Virus record (IMG/VR): IMGVR_UViG_3300028559_001225
Coordinates: 1-46,499 of that record
DNA: 46,499 bases
Source: a virus
Reading direction: 5' to 3' (one strand)
Within the stretch, counting starts at the first letter, position 1; each line of letters starts with the position of its first letter. A program made the position numbers and the translations under genes. This document shows positions 8,987 through 16,414 of the stretch, piece after piece. Below the pieces are notes generated by a model. It searched no databases, was not told the origin of the DNA, and saw nothing but the letters and a program-made list of their open reading frames with translations.

Positions 8987-10251
8987 TTATTTTAATTGCT
9001 TTAAGTCATAAACGATAATGTCTAAAATATCTTTTTGATTTCTAGTCATTTCATTTACTTTCTTACCGTAGCCAATGTGGCGCTCAACAATATCAGTGAT
9101 TTTTGTCACATTCTTTGGATCTTTTGTTACAAGAGTATTTGCAATCTGATTGAATTCATCTAGCAAATCTTCAAAGTCTGTATCAAATAAATTTTGTGTA
9201 TTGATATTGTCTTTACCGCTAGCAGTTTCCATGCCATCTTCTTCTGATTGTTTAATTACAGCATCTTGAATAGCCTTTACAAGATTCTTATAATTAAATT
9301 CAATATAATCTGGTGTGTATTTAAATCGAGAACCAGCCTCAAAGCGCTCAGTACCTCTCATAAATAACAAAGTCTTACTACCATCATCAGTATTAACAGA
9401 ACGACTGTAACCAATAATATCGCACATACGACCAGCAATTAATCTAGGTTTTGCAGGTAGAGTTGGTACAATTTTATTGTACTCTTCGCCTGTTTCATCC
9501 TTGAAAACTTTGTCTGTTGAGTGACTGATAAGAACTAAACCATAATCTTGCTGAACAATCGAGCGTAATTTGCTATCAAATTCTTTGCCAACCTTTGTGT
9601 ATCCACCACCAAAAGGAATATCTCCAATAGTATCTACATTATTCTGGGCGCAGATATATTGTTCGCAATAATCATACGCAATATCAACAGTATCAATAAC
9701 AATAGTTTCATACTTTTCTTTAACAGCAGGGTCTTTAAGCTGTCTAAGAACTTTTAAGAAGTCAATCCAACTATTAATTGGAAGAGCCATAACTCCAGGT
9801 AGAGCCGCATAGCCTTTTTCAAAAGCAACGATTAGTGACTTGGGGAATTTTGAGGCCGTTGTAGTCTTGCCTGATTTGGGCGGGCTCAGGCGAGCCGCGG
9901 ACTATCTCTTATCCAATACGATATATTGGACCTCAGCGCTTGGAATGGTACTTATCTCCATCCTACTCTACTCACTTCCGACTTTTAGTCGTGTTTTCGA
10001 TAGTCTCTAGCCCTTCTCTTTTAAGAGCTTGGGACGGGGTTCTCCTTCACTAATTCCCCGTTGGCATAATTGTGCATAGATATTATACTTCTATTACTCT
10101 AATATTAGAGCCAATTACACACTCGCTAAGTTAGCGATTCACTGAGTTAGGAGAGCCTTATTGTGAAGGCTTACTCTCCATAGAAAAATACAGAATAACC
10201 TCTAAGGTCGTCACTTACCTGATGTGGTTTGATGCTTAATAGATCTAACAT
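8987..10251 (-). CDS. RecA-fold recombinase/AAA ATPase (Sak4-like), split by a group I intron
   Basis: Two exons: 10251 to about 10174 (26 codons) and about 9880 to 8987 (297 codons), joined across the intron to give 323 residues. The join occurs inside the P-loop. Exon 1 ends FFYGE and exon 2 starts with (P/S)KSGKTTTASKFP, restoring GE(P/S)KSGKT, a canonical GxxxxGKT. Exon 2 continues with a Walker B-like TIVIDTVDIAYD and LVLISHSTDK. Unspliced RNA hits a TAA right after exon 1. Sak4-type ATPases act with an ssDNA-binding protein in phage recombination, and such a candidate is encoded two genes upstream. AAAGGAGAT precedes the ATG at 10251. The exact junction is uncertain by 1 nt, which decides Pro or Ser at that position. 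Confidence 0.88.
9881..10173 (-). ncRNA. Group I self-splicing intron, about 293 nt, no homing endonuclease
   Basis: Read on the minus strand, the segment breaks an otherwise continuous ATPase frame and folds like a group I intron. P1: exon 1 GGAGAGT (10179-10173) pairs with guide GCTCTCC (10156-10150), with a U-G wobble at the end. P5: ACGGGG/CCCCGT (10061-10056 with 10039-10034). P7: GACTATC (10005-9999) with GATAGTC (9906-9900), the classic core signature. P9: GGCTC-GCCT-GAGCC (9896-9883). The 3' end ...CCCG leaves a terminal G at 9881. There is no room for an endonuclease ORF, so it is either immobile or mobilised in trans. If the U-G pair marks the 5' site the boundaries shift by 1 nt (10172-9880). 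Confidence 0.88.
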
Positions 10252-14055: not shown

Positions 14056-14083
14056 GTTTGCCCTATTACCTAATAGGACAAAC
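14056..14083 (-). terminator. Stem-loop at the 3' end of the ribonucleotide reductase gene
   Basis: Nearly perfect 13-bp inverted repeat GTTTGTCCTATTA/TAATAGGGCAAAC with a 2-nt loop, containing the nrdJ stop codon. It is followed by CTTTATAAAAAG rather than a clean U-run, so it may be a weak terminator or an mRNA 3'-end stabiliser that tunes expression of the next gene. Confidence 0.55.
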
Positions 14084-16414
14084 TCCATTTTCGCATCCTT
14101 CCATTACTTCATCAAGCTGGTCAGAATATAATTCAATATCATACCTCGCCAACATATCTAGCCGCAATGGTTTGTGAATGCTTGACATTTCATTGAATGT
14201 TGCTACATCAATAGTTTCATATGGAGCCAACTGATATGTTCCGCCATCAAGAGCTAAGAAAGAAACTCCTACGTATTCATCCCAGTTATGGAATATTTTC
14301 TCAAACAACTCGCGCCACTCGTTTGGTTTCACAGTAATTGTATTTGAAGTATTCATATCTGTGTAATTTCTTTGGAAGTGTCTGTAGATTTCAAATTGTT
14401 CAAGTGCACTTACATCTTCTTTCGTGCGCTTGGAGCCAGTTGCAACAGGGAAGTCAACTACCCAAGTGCGTGCATTTGCCATTTGCTCATAATAGTCTGC
14501 GCCAAGCGTTCCAACTTCTGGATTAATAGTCCAACCAGAATCGCGAACAGCAAGTGCAAGAGGGTCCTTGCTATTGATGCGAATGCGTCTAATATGATAT
14601 GGTGCGTGTGAGAAGTGTAGGCCTGGACTTACACCACCAGCAACCTGAGATAGAGTTCCTTCTGGCTTGATAGTTGTCACAAATAGAGGAATTGGGATGC
14701 GCAATTCATCAGCATATTGTGTCACAGCATCGTGAGATACTTTTTTAAGAACATCCAATAGCTCATCTTGCTGAGCCTGATCCCACCCCAGCATCTCCAT
14801 AGCATCTTGATACCCTGTCATGCTACAACCTGTAAGTCTAGCCATAGATTGTATCTTATGCCAGTCTGGTAGTTCTAGCTGAATTAGGGTCATTCTAAGA
14901 CCTGCTCGTGCAGAAAGTCTTTGAGCCTTAATTAAGCCTTCTCTATCAAGCACATATCGACTACCTTTATAGCTCTTTACTTCATGAACAAAGTTTTTAA
15001 CATTAATTGTGGTGAGATTGCACAATCCTTTAGAGAATAGAATAATTTCAGCACATGGATTAACGCCAATTTCTTGAGCAATAGTCACAATGGATTCATG
15101 GTCTGGGCGTTTCACACCTTGGGCCTTTAAAATTCTCCGCGCAGCTTCATATAAATTAATCATGCCTGGCTCGCCCTCAAGTTGCATCATATCGCATAGC
15201 ATCATAACATATTCACGACTAGGCTTATCAATAAAGGCAACGGAATTATTGGACATTCTACGATGATGCAGGCCAGTGCCCTCATAGAATCCTTTGTCTT
15301 TAAAATCTATTTTCATTTTTTCAAAGCGAGTACGTGGGTAAGGAATACCAGATGTGCGAATAGATTTTTCAATCTCTAAAAACTTTTCATAATGCTCTGA
15401 TGTCCACAATCCATTCAAACCAAATTTTGCAAATACAGATTCATAGTCGTTAGGGTCAAGTAAAAAAATTTCTGCTGTTCTGCGCACTCCACCAACTACT
15501 ACATTATAGCCAATTAGATTTGCAATATCCATAATATGAATAGGGCGAACATATCCATATTGTGTATTTATTGAATCCACTTCTAATGGTTTCAGATTTT
15601 CAGGGTCTAATTGATTTGTAATTACCTTGTGAATCCCTTCAAACATTTCTTTTAGTGGTTCTGGACCTGATGCTGTACCACCAAAAGTTTTTAAAGGGGT
15701 TCCATTAGGCCTTACATAATTAAAATTTAAACGTATCAACTCTTTTGTTCTATATCTAGGATTAGTAAGAACTTCAAAGAATAAATTAAGAGCTTGAACC
15801 CATCCTTCTTTACTATCTCCAATTATAATTGTAACTGCGCGCTCAGCTTCAGTAATAAATGATTCATTTTTAAGACCTGGGTGCCCCAAATACTCATAGG
15901 GTTCAAAAATCAAATGATAGCCTTTATTTCTAATTGATGGCAATAGCTTTGCATCATCTAAGCGACAACCAAAGCCAGCCCCTGTTCCAACGAGAAGTGC
16001 ATAAAATAAATCGCCTAAGTCATTCCACTTACTAATTTTTGTGTAGGCACAGTTAAAATTAGCCATAGCAAATTTTTGAATACCTTTATTATTGTAATCA
16101 CCAGCCCACATTGTGCGCCCACTCAAAAATTGATTCAGATTATACATTGATTCAAAGAACTCAATTGCCTCTTCTTGCATGCGCTCTCTGCGTTGTTTTG
16201 TGACAGGCATACCAATTCGATTACAATGCTCCCATTCTTGCATTACATTAAACTCAACAGCGCGCCTTACAGTTTCTTTCCAGACTTCTCTACGTTTTTT
16301 TTCTGGTAAATATCTAGAATATGTGCGGAGATATACGAACGCTCCCAAATCATTCATTTTGGGACTAAAATCTGCGTAATTAGAAAGGAAATCTTGTGAG
16401 AATAAATTTATCAT
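14066..16414 (-). CDS. nrdJ: Adenosylcobalamin-dependent ribonucleoside-triphosphate reductase (class II, monomeric)
   Basis: 782 residues. Reduces NTPs to dNTPs using a B12-generated thiyl radical. Cys122 (NFNCAY), Cys454 and Glu456 (NPCAEI) and Cys465 (LCNLTT) reproduce the spacing of Lactobacillus leichmannii Cys119, Cys408, Glu410 and Cys419. The C-terminal pair CENGVC (774/779) matches the 731/736 redox shuttle. The enzyme works aerobically or anaerobically but needs host or scavenged cobalamin, which hints at a B12-competent host. AAGGAAG precedes the ATG. It lies downstream of the GDP-fucose genes in one operon and supplies dNTPs to the replisome encoded 3 kb further on. Confidence 0.96.
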   Translation of the reverse strand: MINLFSQDFLSNYADFSPKMNDLGAFVYLRTYSRYLPEKKRREVWKETVRRAVEFNVMQEWEHCNRIGMPVTKQRRERMQEEAIEFFESMYNLNQFLSGRTMWAGDYNNKGIQKFAMANFNCAYTKISKWNDLGDLFYALLVGTGAGFGCRLDDAKLLPSIRNKGYHLIFEPYEYLGHPGLKNESFITEAERAVTIIIGDSKEGWVQALNLFFEVLTNPRYRTKELIRLNFNYVRPNGTPLKTFGGTASGPEPLKEMFEGIHKVITNQLDPENLKPLEVDSINTQYGYVRPIHIMDIANLIGYNVVVGGVRRTAEIFLLDPNDYESVFAKFGLNGLWTSEHYEKFLEIEKSIRTSGIPYPRTRFEKMKIDFKDKGFYEGTGLHHRRMSNNSVAFIDKPSREYVMMLCDMMQLEGEPGMINLYEAARRILKAQGVKRPDHESIVTIAQEIGVNPCAEIILFSKGLCNLTTINVKNFVHEVKSYKGSRYVLDREGLIKAQRLSARAGLRMTLIQLELPDWHKIQSMARLTGCSMTGYQDAMEMLGWDQAQQDELLDVLKKVSHDAVTQYADELRIPIPLFVTTIKPEGTLSQVAGGVSPGLHFSHAPYHIRRIRINSKDPLALAVRDSGWTINPEVGTLGADYYEQMANARTWVVDFPVATGSKRTKEDVSALEQFEIYRHFQRNYTDMNTSNTITVKPNEWRELFEKIFHNWDEYVGVSFLALDGGTYQLAPYETIDVATFNEMSSIHKPLRLDMLARYDIELYSDQLDEVMEGCENGVCPIR

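Follow-up and report, generated by a model that had tools for sequence, protein, structure and literature searches.

The locus considered here raises the question of how a phage gene for a Sak4-like ATPase is read when its Walker A codons are split by an insert. The window, that is, the whole stretch of 46,499 nucleotides of viral DNA that was analysed, has on its minus strand a reading frame that begins at 10251 and runs for 26 codons to GGA GAG, where a TAA ends it at once. The translation of 10251–10174 is MLDLLSIKPHQVSDDLRGYSVFFYGE, and the in-frame TAA at 10173–10171 follows directly, in agreement with the 26-residue unspliced product given in the initial annotation of this DNA. Between codons 26 and 27, inside GxxxxGKT, lies an insert of 293 nt (9881–10173, minus strand), and the open frame downstream of it begins CCC AAA TCA GGC AAG ACT. 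Excision of either 9881–10173 or 9880–10172 restores a frame of 323 amino acids, with P or S, respectively, at the junction.

The spliced protein matches PHROG 124 (Sak4-like ssDNA annealing protein; E 2.6e-48) and Pfam AAA_24 (E 1.2e-39), and its Walker A motif is intact, reading GEPKSGKT. The gene had been annotated as a Sak4-like ATPase interrupted in Walker A, and both statements hold. The two exons are intact, with few nonsynonymous changes relative to the intronless relative L001 (exon 2, dN ~0.06 and dS ~1.7); such low divergence is consistent with a working gene, although it may be older than the insertion.

We consider it likely that the insert is a small group I intron without an ORF, probably of type IA, lying in the Walker A codons of the Sak4-like gene and leaving the junction GGAGAG^CCC, with the cut after G. 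The features of the locus are collected in Table 1.

Table 1. Features of the interrupted Sak4-like gene and its group I intron, in window positions.
Feature	Positions	Strand	Description	Basis
Exon 1, Sak4-like ATPase gene	10174–10251	−	Codons 1–26, ending TTC TAT GGA GAG	Translation, intronless relatives
P1, 5′ strand	10173–10179	−	Exon GGAGAG plus intron U10173; U-G at +1, G-C at exon −1	
In-frame stop	10171–10173	−	TAA right behind codon 26, in unspliced mRNA	
Group I intron	9881–10173	−	293 nt, no ORF; starts UAAG, ends CCCG, terminal G at 9881	
Internal guide sequence	10150–10157	−	GGCUCUCC, exact complement of spliced GGAGAG^CC (P1 plus 2-bp P10)	
P3, 5′ strand	10140–10146	−	CUCAGUG, partner 9932–9938	
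Extra hairpin behind P3	10123–10137	−	Shared with close uvsX and terminase introns	
Second extra hairpin	10067–10117	−	Ahead of P4, enlarged in the window copy	
P4, 5′ strand	10056–10061	−	ACGGGG, partner 10034–10039	
P4, 3′ strand	10034–10039	−	CCCCGU; P5 between the P4 strands nearly lost	
P6 and P6a	10011–10033	−	P6, CCC/GGG; P6a, CUCUU/AAGAG	
P7, 5′ strand	9999–10005	−	GACUAUC, partner 9900–9906	
P7.1 and P7.2 hairpins	9943–9993	−		
P3, 3′ strand	9932–9938	−	CGCUGAG	
P8 hairpin	9912–9930	−	UCCAAUA/UAUUGGA	
P7, 3′ strand	9900–9906	−	GAUAGUC	
P9 hairpin	9880–9898	−	Up to the 3′ splice site	
Exon 2, Sak4-like ATPase gene	8987–9880	−	Starts CCC AAA TCA GGC AAG ACT (PKSGKT)	

The Group I Core

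When the DNA was compared with phage records, matches to the 3′ half of the insert were found in introns that Felixounavirus, Fipvunavirus, Pakpunavirus, and other phages have in their DNA polymerase genes. A pattern drawn from the conserved P7–P7.1 stretch retrieved about 85 distinct introns. Fifteen introns of the same layout, the window copy included, were aligned from P3 to P3′. Counted on a structure made by hand, 96.3% of the pairs are standard, and 15 of the 27 tested pairs have compensatory changes, on both sides of the helix. There are 60 double-change cells, as against 16.1 in shuffles, and the covariation score is 0.452 versus 0.144, with none of 500 shuffles reaching the observed value. 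The signal is abolished when the pairing partners are slid along one another, and no slid version comes near it. A covariance model built from 14 relatives, with the window excluded, matches the window once only, at 9932–10065 (105 bits, E 8e-26). Most of the helices also form in an unconstrained fold (z-score −2.67). The core helices, the covariation, and the covariance-model match bear out the group I class first proposed for the insert. At the level of sequence, we regard the group I ribozyme fold and the kinship to phage introns as established.

The initial annotation had also suggested a search with the general Rfam group I model, RF00028. At the gathering score and with E up to 10, this model finds nothing in the window, while the close relative L119 passes it with 51.3 bits against a cut-off of 50. 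Among the controls, other known introns of the same family were missed or under-scored, so the silence of Rfam on the window carries little weight. A search with the exact core pattern gave matches only in contigs of the same phage, and a scan of bacterial genomes yielded two further introns of the broad family.

The conserved core helices P3, P4, P6, P7, and P8 are all present in the window intron. P1 with its U-G pair, P7 (GACTATC/GATAGTC), and P9 are found as initially named; the helix then called P5 is probably P4 (ACGGGG/CCCCGT). In P5, which is present in the relatives, three pairs of the covariance model are non-standard in the window copy. This near-loss makes the splicing efficiency uncertain and lowers the confidence that splicing is efficient; P5 is a typical group I element that is not decisive alone, and the class assignment rests on the remaining core. 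The first P6 pair is C-G in the window copy and G-U in the relatives. The P7.1 and P7.2 hairpins, between P7 and P3′, probably place the intron in subgroup IA.

The Splice Boundary

Sak4 homologues from viral contigs, at up to 92% identity, have no break at the insertion site. The motif GEPKSGKT is continuous in L001 (92%), L005, L006–L010, and others, and in all 11 intronless relatives taken in full length. Every Sak4 relative read has Pro at codon 27, and Ser at this codon is absent from every intronless relative read. It follows that 9881–10173 is not coding, the gene being uninterrupted there in the intronless relatives, and that the S option is unsupported. The boundaries in the initial annotation were thus approximately right; its 1-nt ambiguity is fixed by the relatives to 9881–10173, and of the restored motif GE(P/S)KSGKT, the P form stands and the S form does not. 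Among the best 80 relatives, a longer span is seen only in contigs of the same phage as the window. The identical insert with identical flanks recurs in three further contigs, which are near-identical and apparently from the same phage; the four intron-bearing contigs are not independent of one another. The insert, and its boundaries by homology, we likewise regard as established at the level of sequence.

Pro at codon 27 in the relatives implies the junction GGAGAG^CCC, in which the last base of the 5′ exon is G, not U. With this boundary, the last intron base is G9881. In group I introns, the 5′ exon near-universally ends in U. Group I splicing normally depends strongly on a U-G pair at the 5′ splice site (PMC6274277, PMC6155759). 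P1 here does contain a U-G pair, but relative to the junction derived from the relatives it lies one base further downstream, at +1 of the intron, with an asymmetric internal loop after it. Cleavage after U10173 would give a frameshifted mRNA unless the 3′ site left the terminal G too. Other in-frame combinations of U at −1 with a 3′-terminal G were tried by hand, and none preserves GxxxxGKT.

We propose that the intron RNA would fold into the usual P3–P8 and P4–P6 domains and is predicted to remove itself with a guanosine cofactor. Cleavage after G10174 and joining of the exons would give back an intact Walker A motif; the joined exons, GGAGAG^CC, are matched exactly by the guide sequence GGCUCUCC. 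The initial annotation saw in splicing a possible control point for recombination. Group I introns commonly have a stop codon at their 5′ splice site, which has been read as keeping ribosomes out (PMC4227781); the stop at 10173–10171 would similarly end translation of the unspliced mRNA ahead of the intron. That the intron splices at all, and that it is cut after G and not after U, we infer from the sequence. Counting against a 5′ exon ending in G, all ten relatives with fixed junctions, including the second intron of the same phage, have a 5′ exon that ends in U; nine of these are tabulated (L099, L119, L139, L180, L126, L100, L137, L104, and L187), and the 5′ exon of the tenth, L116, is identical to that of L099, so these two are not independent. 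The last intron base is G in seven of the nine tabulated introns and A in two (L104 and L180).

Related Introns and Mobility

The closest introns found are those in phage uvsX/recA genes (L099, L092, L119, L139, and L180), with 69–71% core identity to the window intron. They share with it the extra hairpins after P3, the P7.1/P7.2 arrangement, the codon phase and register (GGA-NNN^CC), and a YAA start. The RecA motif GN-PETT sets their junctions at GGAAAU^CCAGAG, the introns running YAA...G (A in L180); the window intron starts UAA and ends G in the same phase and register. The uvsX/recA introns differ in that their 5′ exon ends in U where fixed, whereas that of the window ends in G, and in that L092, L119, L139, and L180 have long inserts near P1. 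They also lie in a RecA-like gene rather than in Sak4. L119, L139, and L180 have the guide sequence GG-G-UUUCC, as against GG-C-UCUCC in the window, and these differences match those of the exon at −1 and −3. Within the Sak4-like gene, no site resembles the uvsX site more closely than the insertion site (10 of 14), but others follow at 9, and an ectopic jump from a uvsX site is thus only suggested.

Near P1, the uvsX introns L092 and L119 contain an ORF that resembles an endonuclease gene, by eye perhaps of Vsr or EDxHD type; in other relatives, the P6 or P8 loop is the position used. The terminal A of L180 (uvsX) and L104 (terminase) is apparent when the exons are joined on conserved protein sequence. 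In L098, L106, and L112, group I introns of the same broad family apparently interrupt phage terminase genes close to the Walker A codons, and P-loop codons look like a recurrent target of these introns. An in-frame TAG is present in the terminase exon of L100 and in the intron ORFs of L102 and L125, which suggests that these phages read TAG as an amino acid.

The window intron has no ORF of at least 60 aa, and a search of the window for the HNH, GIY-YIG, and HNH_3 families gave no match. The reported lack of an intron-encoded endonuclease is thus confirmed, with the addition that a second intron of the same phage encodes an HNH endonuclease. This second group I intron, of about 800 nt (L187:1088–1880), is in an overlapping contig, just past the left edge of the window (L187:962). 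Its HNH_3 endonuclease ORF has 171 codons; the intron interrupts a gene of the DNA polymerase III type. The last intron base is G, and the exon preceding the intron ends in U, the joined reading GGG-TAT-TCA having been checked by eye on the sequence.

Comparison with Other Known Systems

IStrons, bacterial hybrids of an intron and a transposon, are the one kind of element for which cleavage after G had been shown before. For the group B IStrons, Tourasse and colleagues (PMC4227781) describe 5′ exons that end in G ahead of an intron starting with U. In nearly all of these elements, the U-G pair is displaced by one position, with an internal loop after it, and one of them, BcISt1, splices after G in vivo. 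The window intron resembles BcISt1 and the group B IStrons in these respects: the exon G, the intron U at +1, the shifted U-G, and the internal loop. Unlike them, it lacks IS607 ORFs and sits in a phage recombination gene. Its P9 is single and short, without the P9.1/P9.2 of group B IStrons, its target ends GAG rather than GG, and its 3′ end is CCCG rather than CGG. An IStron origin was rejected: the 293 nt hold no IS607 ORFs, and the target and end motifs differ. On balance, we think it probable that this is a phage intron spliced after G, with its U-G shifted to +1, outside the IStron setting. The 5′ splice site would then have been shifted independently of the IStrons, the Glu codon of Walker A having forced the G and the guide having changed to pair with it.

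The DNA polymerase introns of Felixounavirus, Fipvunavirus, Pakpunavirus, and others have the P6–P8 core sequence in common with the window intron. They are in another host gene and usually carry an endonuclease gene, and those read have a standard P3–P4 junction, whereas the window intron has two extra hairpins between P3 and P4, as do the uvsX and terminase relatives. The introns of Bastillevirinae phages are mostly of IA type, lie in conserved genes, and in some cases have no ORF, and several have been shown to splice (PMC11878797). The window intron is like them in having no ORF, in its probable IA type, and in its location in a conserved gene. They interrupt genes for DNA polymerase, terminase, thymidylate synthase, and ribonucleotide reductase, with no Sak4 gene in the list (PMC11878797). 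The window has a B12-dependent (class II) ribonucleotide reductase gene at 14066–16414, which is uninterrupted.

Alternative Explanations

The intron might be decaying or recently misplaced, in which case it would either be cut after U10173 and G9881, with a +1 frameshift, or not be spliced, and the gene would be off in this lineage. Both usual splice-site rules, when combined, do give a frameshift, and P5 is nearly lost. We nevertheless judge this reading unlikely, as the exons (whose low nonsynonymous divergence may be older than the insertion) and the core helices are both intact, and the guide sequence matches the Sak4 exon.

Less likely again is an intron of group I that follows the U-G rule, with a cut after U10173, joining to the CC at 9879, and a product reading GESKSGKT. 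The pair U10173-G10156 is available, P1 would then have seven pairs, as in the P1 read in the DNA polymerase intron of the same phage, and the frame would be kept with Ser at codon 27. The intron would then end in C, and the apparent terminal A of L104 and L180 implies that a terminal G is not absolute in the family. Against this, no intronless relative read has the Ser, G9881 aligns with the terminal G of the relatives, and P10 would be reduced to one pair.

It is very improbable that there is no intron and that the insert is a sequencing or assembly artefact, with four assemblies in agreement, or a translational bypassing element, which it superficially resembles in coming after a GAG codon and a stop, since it holds a covarying group I core; bypassing was rejected because the GAG that would match as landing codon does not lie in frame.

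Significance

The preferred reading is thus of an intron whose class is known, the unusual part being the splice-site variant and its setting, for which there is one experimental precedent, BcISt1. In the open-access literature, our search turned up no account of a Sak4 gene interrupted by a group I intron, and Sak4 seems to be a new host gene for such introns. The results are also a warning that the general Rfam group I model misses introns of this type.

The shifted U-G in a short phage intron without an ORF would be a second natural setting for such a pair. The small size of the system would make testable the question raised in PMC4227781, namely whether and how a shifted U-G beside a loop moves the cut site. 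A recombination ATPase of the Sak4 family also joins the genes interrupted by such introns, and the intron in it is close in sequence to those in RecA-like genes of other phages.
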